Below, one piece after another: positions 3,286 to 10,807 of a stretch of DNA of 64,000 nt. Below the pieces are notes generated by a model. The model was given only the letters and a program-made list of their open reading frames with translations, did no database searches and was not told the origin of the DNA. The stretch's first letter is position 1. Each line of letters starts with the position of its first letter. The stretch is from Lentisphaerota bacterium. Lineage in GTDB: Bacteria; Verrucomicrobiota; Kiritimatiellia; CAIQIC01; Lenti-01. The translations under genes were made by a program, and so were the position numbers. The DNA is taken from positions 1-64,000 of the forward strand of contig JAAZBB010000003.1 of NCBI GenBank assembly GCA_012514035.1. Direction: 5' to 3'.

Positions 3286-3990
3286 TCAGTGATCTTCGAG
3301 CCTGTAGGTGATGGGCACGTCCACCTCGATGCTCGCCGGCAGCGCATTGGTTCCGAGCGGACGTTCCGCCGCGGAGCGGAGGATGCCCAGCGCGCCTTCC
3401 GCCAGCTTGGGGGACCCGGTGTTTTCCAGCACCTGCACAGCCCTGATTTCGGCCGCCGGGCTGATGGTCACGCGCAGCAGAACCTTCCCCGTTTCGCGGT
3501 AGTGACGGGCGACGCGGGGATAGTACTTGCCGTCTTCAACCCGTCGCCGCAGTTCTCCCAGCCATTCAGCACGAATGGCCTCTTCCGCCCCCCCTTCCCC
3601 TTCCTGATCCACCGTCGGTTGCGCGGCGACTGTCGGCGCCGCTTCCTCCATCGGTGGCGGCGGAGGTTCCGGCACCGGGTCTGGCTCGGGTAGAACCGCG
3701 GCTGCCGGTTCCGGCTCGGGGACCACCTCCGGCTCGGGGACGGGCTCGGATTCCGGAACCGGTTCCGGCTCGGGGGCCGCGATAATTTCCGGCATGGGTG
3801 CCAGAGCAATTTGCAGTACCGTTTCGGGCTGGATCCGCATTTCGCCGGGAGCGGGTGCCGGCGCGGGACGGGCGCCCAGCCACACAACCAGCCACGCAAC
3901 GCCCCCCAGCGCGGCCCAGCCCGCCACCGCCCCGATCCGGTCGCCGGCGTCCGCCGCCGGCCTACTCGCGTTTCGCAGTGATGAGCACAT
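3286..3990 (-). CDS. tonB: TonB-family energy transducer
   Basis: A protein of about 234 residues with the classic TonB layout: one membrane anchor (roughly residues 19-36), a long Pro/Glu-rich spacer (roughly 40-125) that can span the periplasm, and a C-terminal TonB domain containing YPRVARHYRETGKV followed by a terminal ITYRLE strand. TonB passes proton-motive energy from ExbB-ExbD to outer-membrane receptors. Its start overlaps the end of exbD by 29 bp, so the two are probably translationally coupled. It is last in a six-gene minus-strand run headed by a ModE-like regulator. No TonB-dependent receptor gene is visible in this window. Confidence 0.88.
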   Translation of the reverse strand: MCSSLRNASRPAADAGDRIGAVAGWAALGGVAWLVVWLGARPAPAPAPGEMRIQPETVLQIALAPMPEIIAAPEPEPVPESEPVPEPEVVPEPEPAAAVLPEPDPVPEPPPPPMEEAAPTVAAQPTVDQEGEGGAEEAIRAEWLGELRRRVEDGKYYPRVARHYRETGKVLLRVTISPAAEIRAVQVLENTGSPKLAEGALGILRSAAERPLGTNALPASIEVDVPITYRLEDH

Positions 3991-4354
3991 TGCTCCGCCC
4001 CGCTTCCCGCAGCGGATCCAGCGCCCCGATGAAGGCATCGAATGGCGCCGCCCGGTCCACCCGCAGTTCGACCGGCCCTTCCGGATGCGCCGCCAGCAGT
4101 CCCGGCAGGGATTCCGGCCCGACAACGTCGCCCCGGTGGTGCAACTGCCCTTCGGCATCGATGGCCAGCACCAGCCGCGCCGGATCATCCTCCGCCGGAG
4201 CGGCCGTCCGGGCTGTGGGCAGCGCCACCTGCAGAACCGGCGCGCTGAAACTCGCCGCGAGGATGAAGAACAACAGCAGCATGAACACCACATCGATCAG
4301 CGGCGTCAGGTCGATGTCCGCCCCGAATTCGTCGTCGAGGAATTTCGGTTCCAT
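3962..4354 (-). CDS. exbD: ExbD/TolR-family proton channel subunit
   Basis: A 130-residue protein with a short cytoplasmic N-terminus, one membrane helix near residues 20-40 that carries the family's conserved aspartate in DLTPLIDVVFMLLLFF, and a periplasmic domain ending in NVLITAKRE. With ExbB it forms the proton-driven motor that energises TonB. The start ATG lies 11 bp after the exbB stop, and the gene end overlaps the tonB start, which supports one transcript. ExbD and TolR are close relatives; the adjacent tonB, and the absence of tolA, tolB or pal, favour ExbD. Confidence 0.9.
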   Translation of the reverse strand: MEPKFLDDEFGADIDLTPLIDVVFMLLLFFILAASFSAPVLQVALPTARTAAPAEDDPARLVLAIDAEGQLHHRGDVVGPESLPGLLAAHPEGPVELRVDRAAPFDAFIGALDPLREAGRSNVLITAKRE

Positions 4355-4365
4355 GTCCCGCCCTT

Positions 4366-4968
4366 TCAGCGCCCGCCTGGCACGTCCGCGCCGAACCGCC
4401 CCGCGTATTCCATCAACTCCACCTGAAAGCCGCTGATCTGCATCCGGAAGAAATAGTAGAGGCACAGGACGGGGATCGTGATCGCCAGGCCGATGATCGT
4501 GGTGGTCAACGCCTCCCAGATGCCGTTGGCGAGCAGGGCCGGATCCACCAGGGTCTGGCCGGCTACCACCCGGAACACCTTCGAAATGCCCAGCACGGTC
4601 CCGAGCAGGCCCAGGAGGGGCGAGATCACGGAAATCAGACGCAGCAGCGTCATCGCCCGGTTGACCTTCCGAAAGTGCTTGTGGAACAGGAAGGCCAGCT
4701 CCGTGCGCAGGGCGTCGTGGTCCCGGCCTCCCCCGGCCCGCACCGCCTCCGAAAAGATGCGGATCAGCGGATTGCCGGACCGCGCCCCGGTCTCCGTGTC
4801 CAGCCGCGCCGGATCGCGCGTCAACGCCGCGATATGCCGGTGGAATCCCCAGCCCATCCAGCCCAGCGCCACCGCATTCTTCACGCACAGGTAGATGGCG
4901 GCGGCGGCCACGCCCACGAGGGCGACGCCAGCCGCGCCGATTGAATCATAAAGGCCTTGCAGGTCCAT
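4366..4968 (-). CDS. exbB: ExbB/TolQ/MotA-family proton channel
   Basis: A protein of about 200 residues with three predicted membrane helices (near the N-terminus, and two in the second half around SPLLGLLGTVLGISKVF and TTTIIGLAITIPVLCLYYF), matching the MotA/TolQ/ExbB family. It forms the proton channel with ExbD and powers TonB. I chose ATG 4968 because AAAGGAG sits nine bases upstream; ATG 4989 would place that ribosome binding site inside the gene. The start overlaps the end of the upstream membrane-protein gene by 23 bp, which suggests coupled translation. Confidence 0.9.
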   Translation of the reverse strand: MDLQGLYDSIGAAGVALVGVAAAAIYLCVKNAVALGWMGWGFHRHIAALTRDPARLDTETGARSGNPLIRIFSEAVRAGGGRDHDALRTELAFLFHKHFRKVNRAMTLLRLISVISPLLGLLGTVLGISKVFRVVAGQTLVDPALLANGIWEALTTTIIGLAITIPVLCLYYFFRMQISGFQVELMEYAGRFGADVPGGR

Positions 4969-6016
4969 CGGCAGATTCTCCTTTGTCATTGGAAGCGCCG
5001 GCCAGCGCCAAAACGATCAGTTCCATCAGGAATATTTTCCAGCGGCGGAAACTCCGGGCGCGGCGGCTCCGCCGCCAAGCCACTCCGGCCGCCTGGCGCA
5101 AGGCGGGGAATTGCGCCAGCGTCCGCGACACTTCCGCCCCGTAGACGGCCTGCTCGCGGCGGCGAAACCGCCGGAACAGCGCCCGGCCCAGCGGCCGCAA
5201 TATCCATATCCAGACCGCCAGCACCGTCAGCGCCCGCACGAACACCCGCAAGCCCTTGGCCCAGCCCTCCGGCCCAGGCTGCAGCCACATCGACGTTGCC
5301 AGCAGCACCAGCAGGACCACGCCCGCCTTGAACGGCGTACGCTGCCACCAGCGCTTGCGACCGCCCCCCAGCGCGGGCATGGCGGCTTCGGGCGCCGGTT
5401 CCGCCGGCAACGGATTCGCCAGCACGCGTGCGATCTCGCCGGGAATCGCCCCCGCCAGCCATCCGGTGATCAGGCCCGCGACCGTGTAGTAGCCCAGGTA
5501 GCAGAACAGGAACCAGGCCGTCGGCGATACCTCGCCGGGCCCGCCCCCCATTTTCTCCAGGATCCACCGGCCCACGGCATCCACGGCCTCCCACAGAGAC
5601 TTCCCGTAGAGAATGGTCATCACCAGCAGTTTTTGCGCCGCCCCCTGCCACAGCGCCAGCAAACCCAGCACCAGCGCGCCCAGCCGCACCGAGGGCAGCA
5701 ACCCGAACAGCAGCGCCCCGGCCAGCCCCTGGAAGGACACCGCCACATAGGCCGGCAGCGGCGTGTGCGGACTCGCCGCCGCCTTGACCAGCAACACGAT
5801 CACCGTCGCCTTGAAGATCGCTTTCGCCTTCCGCTCCGCGAAAAACGCGATCAGGGCAATCAACACCACCGCCGTCGAACCCACGACGATCCCGGTGAAC
5901 GGCACGCGCAGGGCATGGATCAATCCCCCCAGCCCCGCTTCGTTCAGGGCCCAGAGCGCGGTCAACTGCTCCACGGCCCGGTTCCGATCAATGCCGCCCA
6001 CGTCCGGGGAATTCAT
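4946..6016 (-). CDS. Multi-pass membrane protein of a ModE/TonB-linked operon
   Basis: A protein of about 356 residues with roughly eight hydrophobic segments. The first two thirds hold closely spaced helices with PxxP and glycine turns, loosely like the S components of ECF transporters. The last third has two more helices separated by arginine-rich stretches. I do not recognise a named family with confidence. Its ATG overlaps the methyltransferase stop as ATGA, and its end overlaps exbB, so it is embedded in the transport operon. The context suggests a small-molecule or metal-linked role at the inner membrane, perhaps a permease for cargo brought in by the TonB system. This is inference. Confidence 0.6.
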   Translation of the reverse strand: MNSPDVGGIDRNRAVEQLTALWALNEAGLGGLIHALRVPFTGIVVGSTAVVLIALIAFFAERKAKAIFKATVIVLLVKAAASPHTPLPAYVAVSFQGLAGALLFGLLPSVRLGALVLGLLALWQGAAQKLLVMTILYGKSLWEAVDAVGRWILEKMGGGPGEVSPTAWFLFCYLGYYTVAGLITGWLAGAIPGEIARVLANPLPAEPAPEAAMPALGGGRKRWWQRTPFKAGVVLLVLLATSMWLQPGPEGWAKGLRVFVRALTVLAVWIWILRPLGRALFRRFRRREQAVYGAEVSRTLAQFPALRQAAGVAWRRSRRARSFRRWKIFLMELIVLALAGASNDKGESADGPARPL

Positions 6017-6822
6017 CGCGAGGGGGGCTCCCACGCCAACAGCGCCCACTCGAAATCATGGCGGTAGAAGGCGCGGCCATCCGCCCCGTGCGGCAACGCC
6101 TGGAAATAGGCGCGCAGCCTTTTCTCTTCGGACGGGGTCAGGCGGCCCAGGCGCCAGCGGAGGCCTTCGACGAACTGGTCAGCGGAATCGTAGGCCAGGC
6201 CGCCGGTCGTGTGCAGGAAGTCCACGCGCGCGCGAATGCCCATTTGATACAGGATGTTGACGGCGTAGATGTAGCCGGGTCGCGGTATGATCGGGCGGCG
6301 GAGTACGCGATAGACTTCGGTGCTCAGGAAGGTTGGCCCGGCGTGCATCGTCAGGCAGCAGCGGCGGCGGGCATGGGCGTTCATTTTCGAGAGCGCGGCG
6401 CGGAGGTCGTCCACGGCCATGGCCCGCGAGCACAGGACCAAATCCGCGCGCGGGATGCGCCGCCAGTCGTCGGCCCACGCACGCCGGTAGGTCCGGATGT
6501 TGCGCACGCCCTCCGCGCGAGCGGCGGCGCGCAGCAGGCGGAGCATTTCGGCAGAAAAATCCAGCGCATGCACGCGCCGGACGCGGCGGGCCAAGGGGAT
6601 GGCTAAATTGCCACTGCCGCATCCGATGTCGAGCACGGTCTGCACGCCGGCGAGATCGAGGTGCCCAAGGAGTTGGCGTGCGTAGTCGCTGGTTTTTTCG
6701 CCGCGGCTGCGCGCCACGGCCCGTCTCCCCCAATCGGCGGAGCTGCGGGCCTGAAAAGAGGAGGCCCGCGCCTGGCGGCGGTAGAGCGCGGCAAAATCAA
6801 TGCGGGTCAGCAGATCCTTCAT
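6013..6822 (-). CDS. Class I SAM-dependent methyltransferase
   Basis: A protein of about 269 residues with the Rossmann-type SAM-binding motif I (VLDIGCGSGN near residues 63-72), an acidic end of strand 2 (VHALDFSAEML), and a motif near ADLVLCSRAMAV. The substrate cannot be deduced. I chose ATG 6822 because it begins the conserved-looking MKDLLTRIDF stretch and lies 28 bp after the preceding regulator gene; longer frames would overlap that gene. Its stop codon overlaps the next start as ATGA. It sits between a ModE-like regulator and a TonB-ExbBD set, so it may modify a transported ligand or a metal-binding small molecule, but the sequence does not prove this. Confidence 0.75.
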   Translation of the reverse strand: MKDLLTRIDFAALYRRQARASSFQARSSADWGRRAVARSRGEKTSDYARQLLGHLDLAGVQTVLDIGCGSGNLAIPLARRVRRVHALDFSAEMLRLLRAAARAEGVRNIRTYRRAWADDWRRIPRADLVLCSRAMAVDDLRAALSKMNAHARRRCCLTMHAGPTFLSTEVYRVLRRPIIPRPGYIYAVNILYQMGIRARVDFLHTTGGLAYDSADQFVEGLRWRLGRLTPSEEKRLRAYFQALPHGADGRAFYRHDFEWALLAWEPPSR

Positions 6823-6850
6823 GGACTCAAGGCCAACCAATGCCGGAAGA

Positions 6851-7231
6851 TCATTGGGCCTCTCCCGCGATTTTCCCGAGAAAAACAGCAAAGGCGGCAT
6901 CTGCGGAACGCCGGACCTTGCCGCACAAGGCGGCGTATTCGCGCATCAAGCGCCGGGCGAATGGGGTCAAGGCGGTGCTGCCGCGGGCCGCGCCGCCTTT
7001 GTGCCGCAGGAGCAGGGTCCGGCCCAGCCCCCGCTCCATGCGGTTCAGGATGCGCAGCGCCTTGACGTAGGACAGGGCCATCGCCCGGGCGGCTTGCTGG
7101 ATGGAACCGGTGCGTTCGATGCCTTCCAGCAACTGGATGACGCCCGGCCCGAGGTAATCCTCGTCGGCGTCCGTGGCCAGCGCCACCTTCACGTGCAGCT
7201 TCATCGGCGGCATCTTAGAATCCGAGGCCAT
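6851..7231 (-). CDS. ModE-type HTH transcriptional regulator (single domain)
   Basis: A protein of about 126 residues that matches the N-terminal winged-helix domain of ModE/LysR-type regulators: LLEGIERTGSIQQAARAMALSY is the helix-turn-helix, followed by an LNRMERGLGRTLLLRHKGG wing typical of ModE. The C-terminal molybdate-binding (MOP) domain is missing, as in many short ModE-like proteins. ModE relatives commonly control molybdate or tungstate uptake and cofactor genes. It is the first gene of a compact minus-strand operon with a methyltransferase, a membrane protein and ExbB-ExbD-TonB, so it may sense or control that system. The start could also be ATG 7213 or 7204; none has a strong ribosome binding site. 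Confidence 0.75.
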   Translation of the reverse strand: MASDSKMPPMKLHVKVALATDADEDYLGPGVIQLLEGIERTGSIQQAARAMALSYVKALRILNRMERGLGRTLLLRHKGGAARGSTALTPFARRLMREYAALCGKVRRSADAAFAVFLGKIAGEAQ

Positions 7232-7257: not shown

Positions 7258-9873
7258 CTACTTTTGCTGGATGCGGTAGAAACAGCCGACATTCGTTGTC
7301 GCTAGCGTGACGGTGGCGTCCGCGAGGTTCGTATAGAACTGCCAGCCGTTGGAGGCGGTCAGGTCGGTCGTCATCCAGACCTCGTAGTCGCAGAGCGGAT
7401 TCAAGCCGCTCACCTCCAGCACCAAACCGTCGTCGGTCGCCGTGGCCGCCACGGCTTCCAGTTCGGCCGGGACCTGCAGGATGACCGGCCGGCTGGCCGC
7501 TGCACCCAGCGGACCCACGCTGTTGGCCATCACCGAGCTGCCGACCGGGAAGTCCCCGGTCATGCGCAGGAGGACGCCGTTGCCGATGGCCCCGCGGCTG
7601 TCGGGATCCGCCAGCAGGCCGGCCAGGTCGAACGTGATCACTGATCCATCGGCATTGGGCGTGCCGACCGAACAGGTCGCCAGATAATCCCCGCCGGGCG
7701 TAATCCAGTCCACGCCGGCGGCCGCCTGGTTCCACGTGGCTTCGCCCACGCGGAACGGCGTGGTCACGGCATGGGCCACCACCGGATTGGCCGAAAGATC
7801 GGAACGGCTTCCGCTGCGCGCCAGCAGCAGGTTGAGGCGGCCGACCTGCAGCGGATCCACATCCAGCAGCGCGGAGGACAGTTTCATCAGGGTGCGACAT
7901 TCGGTGCCATCGCTGTTCAGCAGCACCTTCATGGTCGTCTTGGAAGAGAAATTGCTGTCCTGATATCCGACGCCACTGTCCACGTATGTCGCCGCCACGG
8001 GGTTTTCGGACACCACGACCTGCGCGCCGTTGCTGAACAGGTTCATGCGGGGGCTGCCGACGTAGGATCCGTTCGTGGCGACGGCCGAGTCCATGCGCAT
8101 AAGGAGGCCATGGGCCACGGCGCCGGCGTTCGTGAGCAGTGACCGGACGTCGAACGTCAGCGTCTTTTCCGTCGTCGCGTAAACGCCCGTCACCACGGTT
8201 CCCGCCTCGAAGTCGCCGCCTGCGGCGGCCCAATTCACCGCTCCGACGCCGGTCAAGGCGCTGTTCCAAGTGGCGGCGTCCTCGGGCACGGTTCCGAACG
8301 CGCGCGTCGTCGGATGCAGGAGAATCGGAATGGTCTCGCCACCGTCGCCGATGGTGTTCACGTTGAATTGCAGGGAAACGGAATCCACCGTCGGCAGGTC
8401 CAGATCCAGCGCCGCCGCCGGCAGGGTCAGCAAGGCGCGGGTTTCGGTGCCGCCGTCCAGGTTGACCAGCACCTTGACCGTGTTGCTGGCGAAGAAGGGA
8501 TCATCGGGCCAGGCGCTGTCCATGTAGTAGAACACCGGCAGTGCATAGCCGCCGGTTCCGCCGGCCAGGGCGGCATATTCCGTGATCCGGATCCAGGAGT
8601 GCTTGTTCCGCGTATCCACCACGAAATCGTCGGGACGGTACAGATTCACGCGCGGCATGGTTTGGGCATCCTCAATGGCTGGCCAATTGGAGGGATCCAT
8701 CACGGCGATGGCGCCGTTGGCAACCAGCATCTCCCGCGCTGCGGCATCCTTCCACAACGCCGTCAGGTCGAAGATCGCCGTCCTGGCGGTGTTGTCCACC
8801 GCGGCTTCCACGCGATAGGCTTCTGCCCAATCGCCGCCGCCGCCGGCATTCGTCCAGGCCGTGCGGACATAGGCCGCGTCACCGGCATCCACTGGCCCGT
8901 CGGCATAGGTCCAGGAGGGCCCGTTGGTCGGGTTCGGATCGGCGTACTGCAGTTTGCGCACCAGCTTGGTGGGGGTCGTGATGGGATACAGGAAAATTTT
9001 CTCGCCGCTCCAGGTGTTGATTTCCGCATCAAATTTGGCGACGACCGACTGGATGCGATCCGGATTCACGTTGGTCAGACTCGCGGGCATGGAGAGAATG
9101 GCGCGGCATTCGCTGCCATCCTGGCCGTTGAGCAGGATCTTGCCGACCGTGGACAACTCCTGTTCCCAGTACACGGTTTCCGAGTCCCGGCTGTCGATGT
9201 AGCTGACCGCGAAATCACGGGCGTTGGTATAGGCATCGATCAGAACGGCGGACACTGCGGGATGCTGGGCGACGTTGGTGCTGTTGGGATTCACCAGCGT
9301 CACGCGCAGGAAATTGCCGTCGGCGGGCCAGTTGTCGGCGTCCAGGCGGATCAACGCGCCGTTGGCCAGCAAGGCCGCGAACGTGTTGGTGTCAGCAAGC
9401 AGCGGCAGGAGATCCCACGTCACGGTGTTGGAGTTGGTGTCCACGCTGGCGGCCACGTTGTTGGTCAGGTAGTCGCCGCCGGGATTGGTCCACGACCCGC
9501 TCTTGGTGCGCTTGAGCCACGTGGCCCGGTCAGAGTAATAGGCGTTGGCCAGTGGATGGAGGCGCAGAACGCGGCCATCGTAGTTCTTGGTCGAGACGGA
9601 CACCGCCAACGTGGCTTTCGCCAGCCGGTTGGTGTCCAGGTTCGCCAGATCGGCCGGCAGCTTGAGCAGCACGCGCGTTTCGCTCGGCGCGCCGTCCAGC
9701 ACGAGCTTGGAGGACGTGGCGGCGCTGAAGTTGTTCGTCTGGTCTGCGCTATCCACGTGCGTCATTTCGGTGACGCCGTAGGAATGCCCTTGCGTGACGG
9801 CCCACGCTACGGGCGACCAAATCCAGACCATGGCCATCAGGCCCAGCCATCGTTTTGCGTTCATGTTCTTCAT
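7258..9873 (-). CDS. Exported protein with four DNRLRE-type repeats
   Basis: An exported protein of about 871 residues. The N-terminus (MKNMNAKRWLGLMAMVWIW and on to AWA) is a signal peptide; AAGGAAG lies just upstream of ATG 9873. Four copies of a ~200-residue beta-rich module follow, each with a Y-x-DS start, a KVLLN-DG strand, an ETR or ECR motif and a later W-N-x-A turn. This fits the DNRLRE (CBM96-like) domain family, which is found in cell-surface and carbohydrate-binding proteins. The C-terminus is a fibronectin-like segment closing in a CFYRI strand. It lies downstream of a prepilin gene on the same strand and may be exported with it. Confidence 0.75.
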   Translation of the reverse strand: MKNMNAKRWLGLMAMVWIWSPVAWAVTQGHSYGVTEMTHVDSADQTNNFSAATSSKLVLDGAPSETRVLLKLPADLANLDTNRLAKATLAVSVSTKNYDGRVLRLHPLANAYYSDRATWLKRTKSGSWTNPGGDYLTNNVAASVDTNSNTVTWDLLPLLADTNTFAALLANGALIRLDADNWPADGNFLRVTLVNPNSTNVAQHPAVSAVLIDAYTNARDFAVSYIDSRDSETVYWEQELSTVGKILLNGQDGSECRAILSMPASLTNVNPDRIQSVVAKFDAEINTWSGEKIFLYPITTPTKLVRKLQYADPNPTNGPSWTYADGPVDAGDAAYVRTAWTNAGGGGDWAEAYRVEAAVDNTARTAIFDLTALWKDAAAREMLVANGAIAVMDPSNWPAIEDAQTMPRVNLYRPDDFVVDTRNKHSWIRITEYAALAGGTGGYALPVFYYMDSAWPDDPFFASNTVKVLVNLDGGTETRALLTLPAAALDLDLPTVDSVSLQFNVNTIGDGGETIPILLHPTTRAFGTVPEDAATWNSALTGVGAVNWAAAGGDFEAGTVVTGVYATTEKTLTFDVRSLLTNAGAVAHGLLMRMDSAVATNGSYVGSPRMNLFSNGAQVVVSENPVAATYVDSGVGYQDSNFSSKTTMKVLLNSDGTECRTLMKLSSALLDVDPLQVGRLNLLLARSGSRSDLSANPVVAHAVTTPFRVGEATWNQAAAGVDWITPGGDYLATCSVGTPNADGSVITFDLAGLLADPDSRGAIGNGVLLRMTGDFPVGSSVMANSVGPLGAAASRPVILQVPAELEAVAATATDDGLVLEVSGLNPLCDYEVWMTTDLTASNGWQFYTNLADATVTLATTNVGCFYRIQQK

Positions 9874-9911
9874 TCTTCCTTGGCTTGTTCTTAAAATGAC
9901 CTCGCTCCGGT

Positions 9912-10688
9912 TTAATAAAGGTAGGGGTACCATTCCAGGTCATCGTAGGCGGGGACGTCGGAGCGGGTTCGCGCCCAGACGTCGTCGCGCCACTTCACGT
10001 GGCCGTCCAAAAAAAGCACGTTGCACCCCTCCCCCCCCATGAACCGCCAATGGCGTACGGAAAGGGCGGTGGCGTCTTCCGCCGTGTGGCGACCGGCTTC
10101 GGGGTTGGGATACTTGCCGCCGAAAACGCCGTCGCCGGGCTCCACGGCCTGCTCGAACATCAGGATGGTTTGGGCCGGGGCCGTGCAGTGCGGAAGAAAC
10201 AGATAGCTGGGCTGGTTGGGCCGGCCGCCAAGGCCATAATCAAAGTCCTGCTCCAGGTAGGAATTCATCGCGTAAGAGTGATAGCTCTTGCCTGGCCGCG
10301 CCTTGACGGACGGGCACTGCCAGAAGCCGCCAGTCGGTTTTTGGTCCTTGGGATAGTCGCGCCAGGCCTTTGAATCCATGTAATTGGGCGGCAATTCATC
10401 CACGTAGCTGTGGTCGTGCGGCGAATCGGCCAGCCCCGACTTGTCGCTGCGGCTGCGGTCGTCGCAATGCGGCAGGAATCCCTTGTGGTCGGCCGCGTAA
10501 GCCATGAAGGCAATCCCCCAGAGCCGCAGGTTGTTCCGGCAGGCCGCCGCCTGCGCCTGGCGCAGCGACTGGGTAAACGCCGGGGTTCCGATCACCGCCA
10601 GCAGGAGGATCACGGCGCAGACCACCAGCAATTCCAGCAGCGTGAATCCGCGGGAACGGGCTAAATCCTTTGACGGGCGGGGGCGCAA
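9912..10688 (-). CDS. Type II secretion/prepilin-like protein (H-x9-DG type)
   Basis: A 258-residue protein with a prepilin leader: short basic N-terminus, then GFTLLELLVV with cleavage expected after Gly14 and the conserved glutamate at mature position 5. A long hydrophobic helix follows. The soluble part has the NVLFLDGHVKW motif near the C-terminus, characteristic of the abundant pseudopilin-like proteins of Planctomycetes, Verrucomicrobia and Lentisphaerae. It is probably assembled by a type II secretion or pilus-like machine. The gene ends 38 bp before the start of the DNRLRE protein on the same strand, so the two may be cotranscribed. Confidence 0.88.
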   Translation of the reverse strand: MRPRPSKDLARSRGFTLLELLVVCAVILLLAVIGTPAFTQSLRQAQAAACRNNLRLWGIAFMAYAADHKGFLPHCDDRSRSDKSGLADSPHDHSYVDELPPNYMDSKAWRDYPKDQKPTGGFWQCPSVKARPGKSYHSYAMNSYLEQDFDYGLGGRPNQPSYLFLPHCTAPAQTILMFEQAVEPGDGVFGGKYPNPEAGRHTAEDATALSVRHWRFMGGEGCNVLFLDGHVKWRDDVWARTRSDVPAYDDLEWYPYLY

Positions 10689-10701: not shown

Positions 10702-10727
10702 CCGATCTACACATTCATGTATATCGG
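10702..10727. promoter_or_regulatory. Operator-like inverted repeat between divergent genes
   Basis: The arms CCGATCTACA (10702-10711) and TGTATATCGG (10718-10727) pair at nine of ten positions around a six-base centre. The site lies between the minus-strand prepilin start (10688) and the plus-strand HIT gene start (10808), where an operator for either gene would be expected. No regulator is identified. Confidence 0.35.
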
Positions 10728-10807
10728 GCGCAGGTTACCGGCGGGCGGACCCTTTGTCAAGAAAGGTTGCCCCGTGTGGCAGTCGGATTGGTGAACGGAA
10801 AGAAAAT

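Follow-up and report, generated by a model that had tools for sequence, protein, structure and literature searches.

A putative TonB-type uptake operon with a ModE-type operator and a methyltransferase of a candidate importer-associated family in a Lentisphaerota bacterium

The stretch of Lentisphaerota DNA analysed here (the window, 64,000 nucleotides) carries six minus-strand open reading frames that a preliminary description took to overlap or nearly touch, an arrangement confirmed by the reading frames, their junctions and their domain matches. In order, they encode a ModE-type helix-turn-helix (HTH) regulator of 126 amino acids (6851..7231), a class I SAM methyltransferase (MT; 6013..6822; Methyltransf_25, 1e-14), a membrane protein (MP; 4946..6016) with about 8 transmembrane helices, ExbB (4366..4968; PF01618, MotA_ExbB, E 3e-21), ExbD (3962..4354; PF02472, E 2e-20) and TonB (3286..3990), which combines a proline/glutamate-rich linker with a TonB_C domain (PF03544, E 2e-11; TIGR01352 above its cut-off). 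The Pfam matches of ExbB, ExbD and TonB exceed their gathering cut-offs. The HTH gene is separated by 28 bp from the MT start at 6822, MT and MP share an ATGA (6013-6016), MP and ExbB overlap by 23 bp (ExbB ATG 4968, MP stop 4946), the ExbD ATG lies 11 bp downstream of the ExbB stop, and ExbD and TonB overlap by 29 bp (TonB ATG 3990, ExbD stop 3962).

The unit is longer than these six genes. Upstream of the HTH gene and in the same orientation, with gaps of 26-38 bp, lie genes for a pseudopilin-like protein (9912..10688; 258 aa, N_methyl motif, Pfam N_methyl 5e-6, DUF1559-like, TTG start) and for a DNRLRE-domain secreted or surface protein (7258..9933, with the ATG likely at 9873; NF033679, E 3e-19), the stop of the latter falling 26 bp upstream of the HTH start. 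The order HTH-receptor-MT-MP-ExbB-ExbD, where the receptor is TonB-dependent, is kept in seven relatives (G001, G004, G005, G006, G009, G013 and G022), so that the six-gene arrangement is not a product of chance; the proposal of a single functional unit is borne out, with the unit now extended upstream.

Ahead of the pseudopilin, DNRLRE and HTH genes and the rest of the unit lies a ModE-type operator (10702..10727, minus strand), a 26-bp dyad, CCGATATACATGAATGTGTAGATCGG, in which two 9-bp half-sites flank a 6-bp spacer and which has one mismatch to CCGATATACA-N6-TGTATATCGG. It is the sole match at up to 3 mismatches in the window (0 in 100 shuffles) and the one site in the window genome. Across 56 genomes the operator was found in 17, comprising 16 of the 20 MT-positive and 1 of the 36 MT-negative genomes, and a reversed control gave 0 matches; its frequency is about one per genome, and it is almost confined to MT-positive genomes. 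In G010, a single box sits between divergent PBP-FecCD-ABC and pseudopilin-DNRLRE operons. TTGACA (10755-10760), a 17-bp spacer and TAACCT together form a probable promoter (10732..10760, minus strand), to judge from the sequence, and TTGAC(A) is equally far from the box in four other DNRLRE loci; a consensus scan returned 0 promoters at a score of at least 9/12, missing this one because its -10 hexamer is weak. Given the position of the dyad, overlapping the operon start, the HTH protein may bind it and repress the operon.

The HTH protein, which we aligned with 12 orthologues, matches TIGR00637 over residues 28-112 (E 7.2e-18) at 64.5 bits, below that model's 98.5-bit curated cut-off; HTH_1 was the sole Pfam domain found, with no TOBE/Mop molybdate-binding domain. 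It is thus like ModE (E. coli, Geobacter) in the N-terminal HTH domain and in its operator, with two 9-bp half-sites and a 6-bp spacer, but differs in lacking TOBE/Mop, in having about one operator per genome, and in a host without MoeA, MoaC or nif. The preliminary description had read the ModE-type domain as a pointer to molybdate or tungstate. Were this so, the domain would report Mo/W and the system would import the oxyanion or its chelate, a reading with which several observations agree: 7 of the 9 operator half-site bases match the E. coli ModE consensus (PMC2700814), ModD adjoins MT in Enterobacteria (TIGR01334, 391 bits), and the binding proteins of MT-linked importers are distantly related to MolA, which binds molybdate with low affinity (PMC4031551). 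However, MoeA, MoaC and nitrogenase (Oxidored_nitro) were found in 0 of the 20 MT-positive genomes, the window genome included and 13 of them at least 90% complete, whereas 16 of the 36 MT-negative genomes have MoeA and 14 have MoaC. Since the regulator also amounts to the DNA-binding part of ModE, without the molybdate-binding domain, molybdate or tungstate is unlikely to be involved here; following the MoeA, MoaC and nif searches we rejected their uptake as the best reading and consider it very improbable. ModE-type sites do occur alongside MT, in the window as elsewhere, but a link to molybdate or tungstate is unsupported.

Comparisons of binding proteins likewise led us to reject identity with MolABC (HI1470-1472), the H. 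influenzae molybdate importer. With its FecCD-type permease and cluster-A binding protein it is broadly akin to the MT-linked importers, but the MT-linked binding proteins form a separate subfamily (PDB 4PAG) and are not MolA orthologues: they are nearer 4PAG/4OVK than MolA, as in Spirabiliibacterium (4PAG 1.6e-53 vs MolA 7.5e-12). Neither an importer nor a binding protein of this kind is present in the window unit.

Turning to the outer membrane, a TonB receptor lies within the operon, between HTH and MT, in ten relatives (54-100% identity to the query), which sustains the earlier suggestion of TonB-energised uptake. Thirteen genomes have the receptor, always alongside MP. As had been noted, the window has no receptor; the window genome too has none of this type at E<=1e-20, and its ExbBD-TonB is left with no recognisable partner receptor. 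Among strong matches, the TonB receptor and the DNRLRE protein are mutually exclusive (13 vs 5 genomes): DNRLRE orthologues (E<=1e-40) occur only in G000 (the window genome), G008, G010, G011 and G014, all without the receptor, and pseudopilin homologues adjoin DNRLRE in L112, L128, L155 and L185. This pattern could mean that DNRLRE and the pseudopilin replace the receptor, with one regulator and operator driving either and both feeding one MT-dependent ligand-processing step, a possibility that we entertain with considerable doubt. It might instead reflect decay, the receptor having been lost in the window's species and the remainder persisting as a relic behind another promoter. The sister genome, G002, does retain the receptor, and in the window the HTH gene abuts MT at the position that the receptor occupies in relatives. 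All reading frames are nevertheless intact, however, with their overlaps preserved, MP is 85% identical to its G003 counterpart, the operator is retained with 1 mismatch, and the DNRLRE-operator arrangement is repeated in G008, G010, G011 and G014; decay is, in our judgement, unlikely.

The signature of the methyltransferase in the window, PGYIYAVNILYQMGI (P-x-YIY-x-x-NILYQMGI), includes DYIYxxNILYQMGI, which is near-invariant in a family alignment (n=30) and in Clostridial members, and the protein also has the SAM motif DxGxGxG, nearly invariant in the same alignment. The fold predicted by AlphaFold 2 (pLDDT 92) most resembles those of methyltransferases acting on carboxyl and thiol groups of small molecules (trans-aconitate MT, GtmA and TmtA), a fold-level likeness that is common to very many methyltransferases, and profile searches gave weak similarity to CpaM and CbiT. 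In Enterobacteria, Shewanella, Campylobacterota, Desulfospira and archaea, MT homologues lie next to ABC importers and receptors, which upholds the assignment of the methyltransferase to an uptake system. Homologues that keep NILYQMGI also stand at the end of Nik/Opp-type importer operons in Clostridia, and some of these are fused to a full LysR regulator. FecCD, Nik or TonB-dependent receptor genes lie near most high-similarity homologues; the Campylobacterota/Deltaproteobacteria members L034, L046 and L072 had no importer or receptor gene in the stretch read. Genes found near MT encode FecCD and Nik/Cnt-like importers, ModD, DUF364 and FmdE; in the window, MT adjoins MP-ExbBD-TonB. Since MT is common to two unrelated importer classes, its target is probably the imported ligand, or the control of that ligand, and not one transporter. 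By the SAM motif, the signature and adjacency to importer or receptor genes we define a candidate family of importer-associated methyltransferases (the NILYQMG family). Literature searches found no description of an MT-receptor-importer system and no ligand, metal or activity for any of its members, and neither MT nor MP falls in a family whose established function lies elsewhere. With the gene order conserved as well, neither of the outcomes that the preliminary description named as refuting it was observed.

That MT might be part of a sensor, binding or modifying the ligand and signalling to the adjacent regulator, is suggested by L066, L067 and L071, in which HTH_1, LysR_substrate and methyltransferase domains form one chain, by the adjacency of HTH and MT in the window, G010 and G011, and by the lack of an effector domain in the HTH protein itself. 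Outside the lineage, however, the MT gene of most loci lies beside transport genes with no regulator detected alongside, and the near-invariant SAM motif argues for catalysis, leaving a sensor role with a low probability. MT might also make the ligand, completing a small metallophore pathway whose product MP would export. The two genes are translationally coupled through their ATGA, MP occurs in 16 MT-positive genomes and as a fragment in G024, and the modelled fold is consistent with a small-molecule substrate; yet no further biosynthetic gene was seen in the operon at any locus read, not every MT gene is accompanied by MP, and those of archaea and Firmicutes have importers only as neighbours, so we think synthesis improbable.

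MP itself had no match in Pfam, NCBIfam, PDB sequences, PDB folds or viral folds, and no detectable relative outside the lineage. Its AlphaFold 2 model (pLDDT 75, pTM 0.73) gave no Foldseek match at E<=0.001. His34 and His84 are invariant. MP accompanies all 13 receptors and is missing from G008, G010, G011 and G014. Helix spacing had raised the suspicion of an ECF S-component, which found no support.

Several known systems share parts of this machinery. TonB-ExbB-ExbD metal uptake (siderophore, haem, B12) draws its energy from the same complex and pairs it with a dedicated receptor, as do the window's relatives, whereas the window unit lacks the receptor and has, in addition, a methyltransferase and a novel membrane protein. 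The E. coli 'iron ABC'-ModD-methyltransferase-TonB receptor locus (Nissle CIW80_RS24590-24615) has a homologous MT and a homologous TonB-dependent receptor, but uses PBP-FecCD-ATPase and ModD where the window unit has MP-ExbB-ExbD-TonB; this six-gene locus is present in 2,122 of 5,426 complete E. coli genomes. Receptors homologous to that of L121 stand beside MT family members and PBP-FecCD-ABC in Shewanella, Raoultella, E. albertii and Campylobacterota (E 1e-61 to 1e-135). NikABCDE and CntABCDF, importers of nickel and staphylopine-metal complexes, are type I ABC importers absent from the window unit, although distant MT homologues close such operons in Clostridia. The E. coli fit system for iron transport (PMC2593036) resembles the present one in combining a receptor, a binding protein, an ABC importer and a small HTH regulator; identity with fit was rejected, as it has two permeases, no methyltransferase or ModD described, and a different locus.

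Taken together, these observations lead us to favour, tentatively, an operon that regulates itself and serves the TonB-type uptake of a small molecule in short supply. This would most likely be a complex of a metal with a ligand, molybdate and tungstate excepted, and MT would modify the ligand in the cytoplasm; the reading as a whole seems to us plausible while falling somewhat short of probable. The ModE-type HTH protein would repress from its dyad; in most relatives the ligand would pass the outer membrane via the dedicated receptor, powered by ExbB-ExbD-TonB, and a FecCD-type ABC importer (in the same regulon in G010 and the same island in G002), MP as a putative permease, or both would carry it across the inner membrane. 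In the cytoplasm, MT would cap one of the ligand's donor groups, so that the ligand binds less tightly and the metal or cargo is freed. In the window genome the receptor would have been lost, with the DNRLRE surface protein and pseudopilin now operator-proximal. The proposal of a chelate draws on the genes that accompany MT and on fold-level similarity. Against this reading, the single FecCD gene of the window genome lies outside operator control and has no adjoining binding-protein gene. A large cofactor (corrinoid, haem or similar) might be taken up in place of a metal chelate: the receptor resembles BtuB, siderophore and haem receptors (TIGR01779, E 2e-22; TIGR01783, E 4e-31), the best named matches of FecCD are BtuC and F420-0 permeases, and the CpaM and CbiT similarities of MT point the same way. 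All these similarities are, however, far under equivalog cut-offs, and Rfam searches of the window and nine relative loci found no regulatory element, cobalamin riboswitches included, so a cofactor has only a small chance of being the substrate.

MT appears to be a widespread, uncharacterised accessory of metal-type importers, found from bacteria to archaea and in about 39% of complete E. coli genomes, and the homologous loci of E. coli Nissle and Shewanella make the questions of import and methylation tractable there. A ModE-type switch need not signal molybdenum, which bears on routine genome annotation. The putative natural receptor swap under one operator is testable and, if true, would amount to outer-membrane capture of a metal-type ligand without a beta-barrel receptor.

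Reading of the ORFs and junctions bore out the six minus-strand genes of the operon proposed at 3286-7231 in the preliminary description, with their positions and overlaps, and its domain calls also agreed: a ModE-type HTH regulator (6851-7231), a SAM methyltransferase (MT, 6013-6822), ExbB, ExbD and TonB. The regulator matched TIGR00637 (E 7e-18), yet fell under the cut-off of that model, and the membrane protein (MP, 4946-6016) had no family match in domain searches. The unit reaches further upstream of the HTH gene, where a pseudopilin-like gene (9912-10688) and a gene for a secreted or surface DNRLRE-domain protein (7258-9933) run toward it on the same strand, with gaps of 26-38 bp. DNRLRE and pseudopilin genes therefore stand together with MP and ExbBD-TonB in the window, and the receptor is missing.

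Upstream of the HTH gene of relatives we found a 26-bp dyad, CCGATATACA-N6-TGTATATCGG, whose architecture matches that of the E. coli ModE box (9-bp half-sites, N6; as quoted in PMC2700814). The sole site in the window (10702-10727, 1 mismatch) lies before the pseudopilin gene, and the pattern, built from eight sites, had 0 matches in 100 shuffles. Across 56 relatives (≤3 mismatches), among which genus and family members are non-independent, the dyad was present in 16 of 20 MT-positive genomes versus 1 of 36 others (G024, which carries an MP fragment), nearly always as one copy per genome, and a reversed control pattern had no matches in the same scan. Sites outside pattern building occurred in G008, G010 (two), G011, G013, G014, G015, G016, G022 and G024, and G043 has a second, weak site. 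Those inspected for context (G008, G010, G011, G013, G014, G015 and G022) lie ahead of the HTH gene or of DNRLRE, or separate divergent operons for a binding protein-FecCD permease-ABC ATPase importer and for pseudopilin-DNRLRE. At DNRLRE loci a promoter-like stretch based on TTGAC(A) immediately precedes the box, whose position suggests repression; a consensus promoter scanner did not list this stretch in the window. G008 has a second DNRLRE copy (L186:8487-10715), and a poorer match to the box (5 mismatches) overlaps the start region of this gene. In a same-genus genome, a second ModE-type HTH gene (L112:5340-5813; TIGR00637 E 8e-23) adjoins the receptor. Divergent DNRLRE/MT intergenic regions hold another inverted repeat, GTTATGTCCG..CGGACATAAC (L128:1420-1600), or its half-site (L112:15100-15240), possibly the site of this second ModE-like regulator.

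The neighbourhood of MT and MP with ExbB proved conserved: the order HTH-TonB-dependent receptor-MT-MP-ExbB-ExbD recurs in G001, G004, G005, G006, G009, G013 and G022, and shorter contigs agree. G002, of the window's genus, holds nearly the whole set inside 16 kb (HTH, receptor, second ModE-type HTH, importer, pseudopilin, two DNRLRE genes, MT, MP, ExbB, ExbD). Under strict thresholds, 13 MT-positive genomes had the receptor (E≤1e-20) and five others a DNRLRE orthologue (E≤1e-40), with zero overlap (P 0.0014), although such P values overstate the case for a swap because the MT tree, in which one clade holds most DNRLRE-type genomes, needs only about three label changes, that is, few independent events. 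No MT-negative genome had a DNRLRE orthologue at this threshold. In G003, DNRLRE and pseudopilin lie at a contig edge, and in G002 the receptor occurs together with weak DNRLRE relatives. The genomes compared are drafts, and the receptor is probably absent from the window's own, which is 94% complete.

MP occurred in 17 of the 56 relatives (one a fragment) and in 8 of 388 genomes sampled from the phylum; apart from the G024 fragment, every carrier was MT-positive. Receptor co-occurrence, a check raised earlier, was complete, MP accompanying 13/13 receptors; it was absent in G008, G010, G011 and G014. Sequence and fold searches with MP (model pLDDT 75, pTM 0.73) gave no match.

The window genome's only FecCD gene, paired with an ATPase (L135:9119-10887, contig C7), has no operator and no adjoining binding-protein gene; the pair is a possible inner-membrane partner of the unit. 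Elsewhere, related receptors adjoin MT family members and the importer in Shewanella, Raoultella, E. albertii and Campylobacterota; the loci in Enterobacteria also carry ModD (TIGR01334, 391 bits). A homologous six-gene locus is found in 2,122 of 5,426 complete E. coli genomes; in Nissle (L159, 4854943-4869376) it reads PBP-FecCD-ATPase-MT-ModD-TonB receptor, with generic annotation only. A Desulfospira locus (L064:5953-13180) holds a TonB receptor, MT, two binding proteins, FecCD and ABC genes, with ExbB/ExbD upstream; its binding proteins start with dockerin-like repeats, similar to those in archaeal L063 and L068. Comparison of binding proteins ruled out MolA orthology for those linked to MT elsewhere.

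The proposed molybdate or tungstate link was not supported. MoeA, MoaC and nitrogenase were found in 0 of 20 MT-positive genomes, versus MoeA in 16 and MoaC in 14 of the remaining 36 (hypergeometric P 2e-4 and 7e-4, kinship ignored), and the window's regulator has no molybdate-binding domain.

In the METHYLTRANSFERASE (MT) family, DYIYxxNILYQMGI is kept across Verrucomicrobiota, archaea and Clostridia. In Clostridia, MT is the last gene of Nik/Opp-type importer operons, and three such operons, in Lachnospiraceae-like genomes, end in a gene that joins an entire LysR regulator and MT in one protein (L066 6792-8645, L067 7077-8849, L071 7071-8840). DUF364 (‘putative heavy-metal chelation’) neighbours MT in L055 and L056, and an FmdE-type gene lies nearby in L062 (Dehalococcoidia, by Pfam) and, by eye, in L059 (Spirochaetia) and L070 (Methanolobus). 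Since the folds nearest to the MT model (pLDDT 92), trans-aconitate MT, BioC, GtmA and TmtA, are small-molecule carboxyl- and thiol-methyltransferases, it is plausible at the level of fold that MT caps a donor atom and so releases cargo. We tentatively favour, at somewhat short of even chances, an autoregulated module in which the unit's own regulator would control uptake of a metal-chelate-like ligand, which would be imported and then methylated in the cytoplasm.
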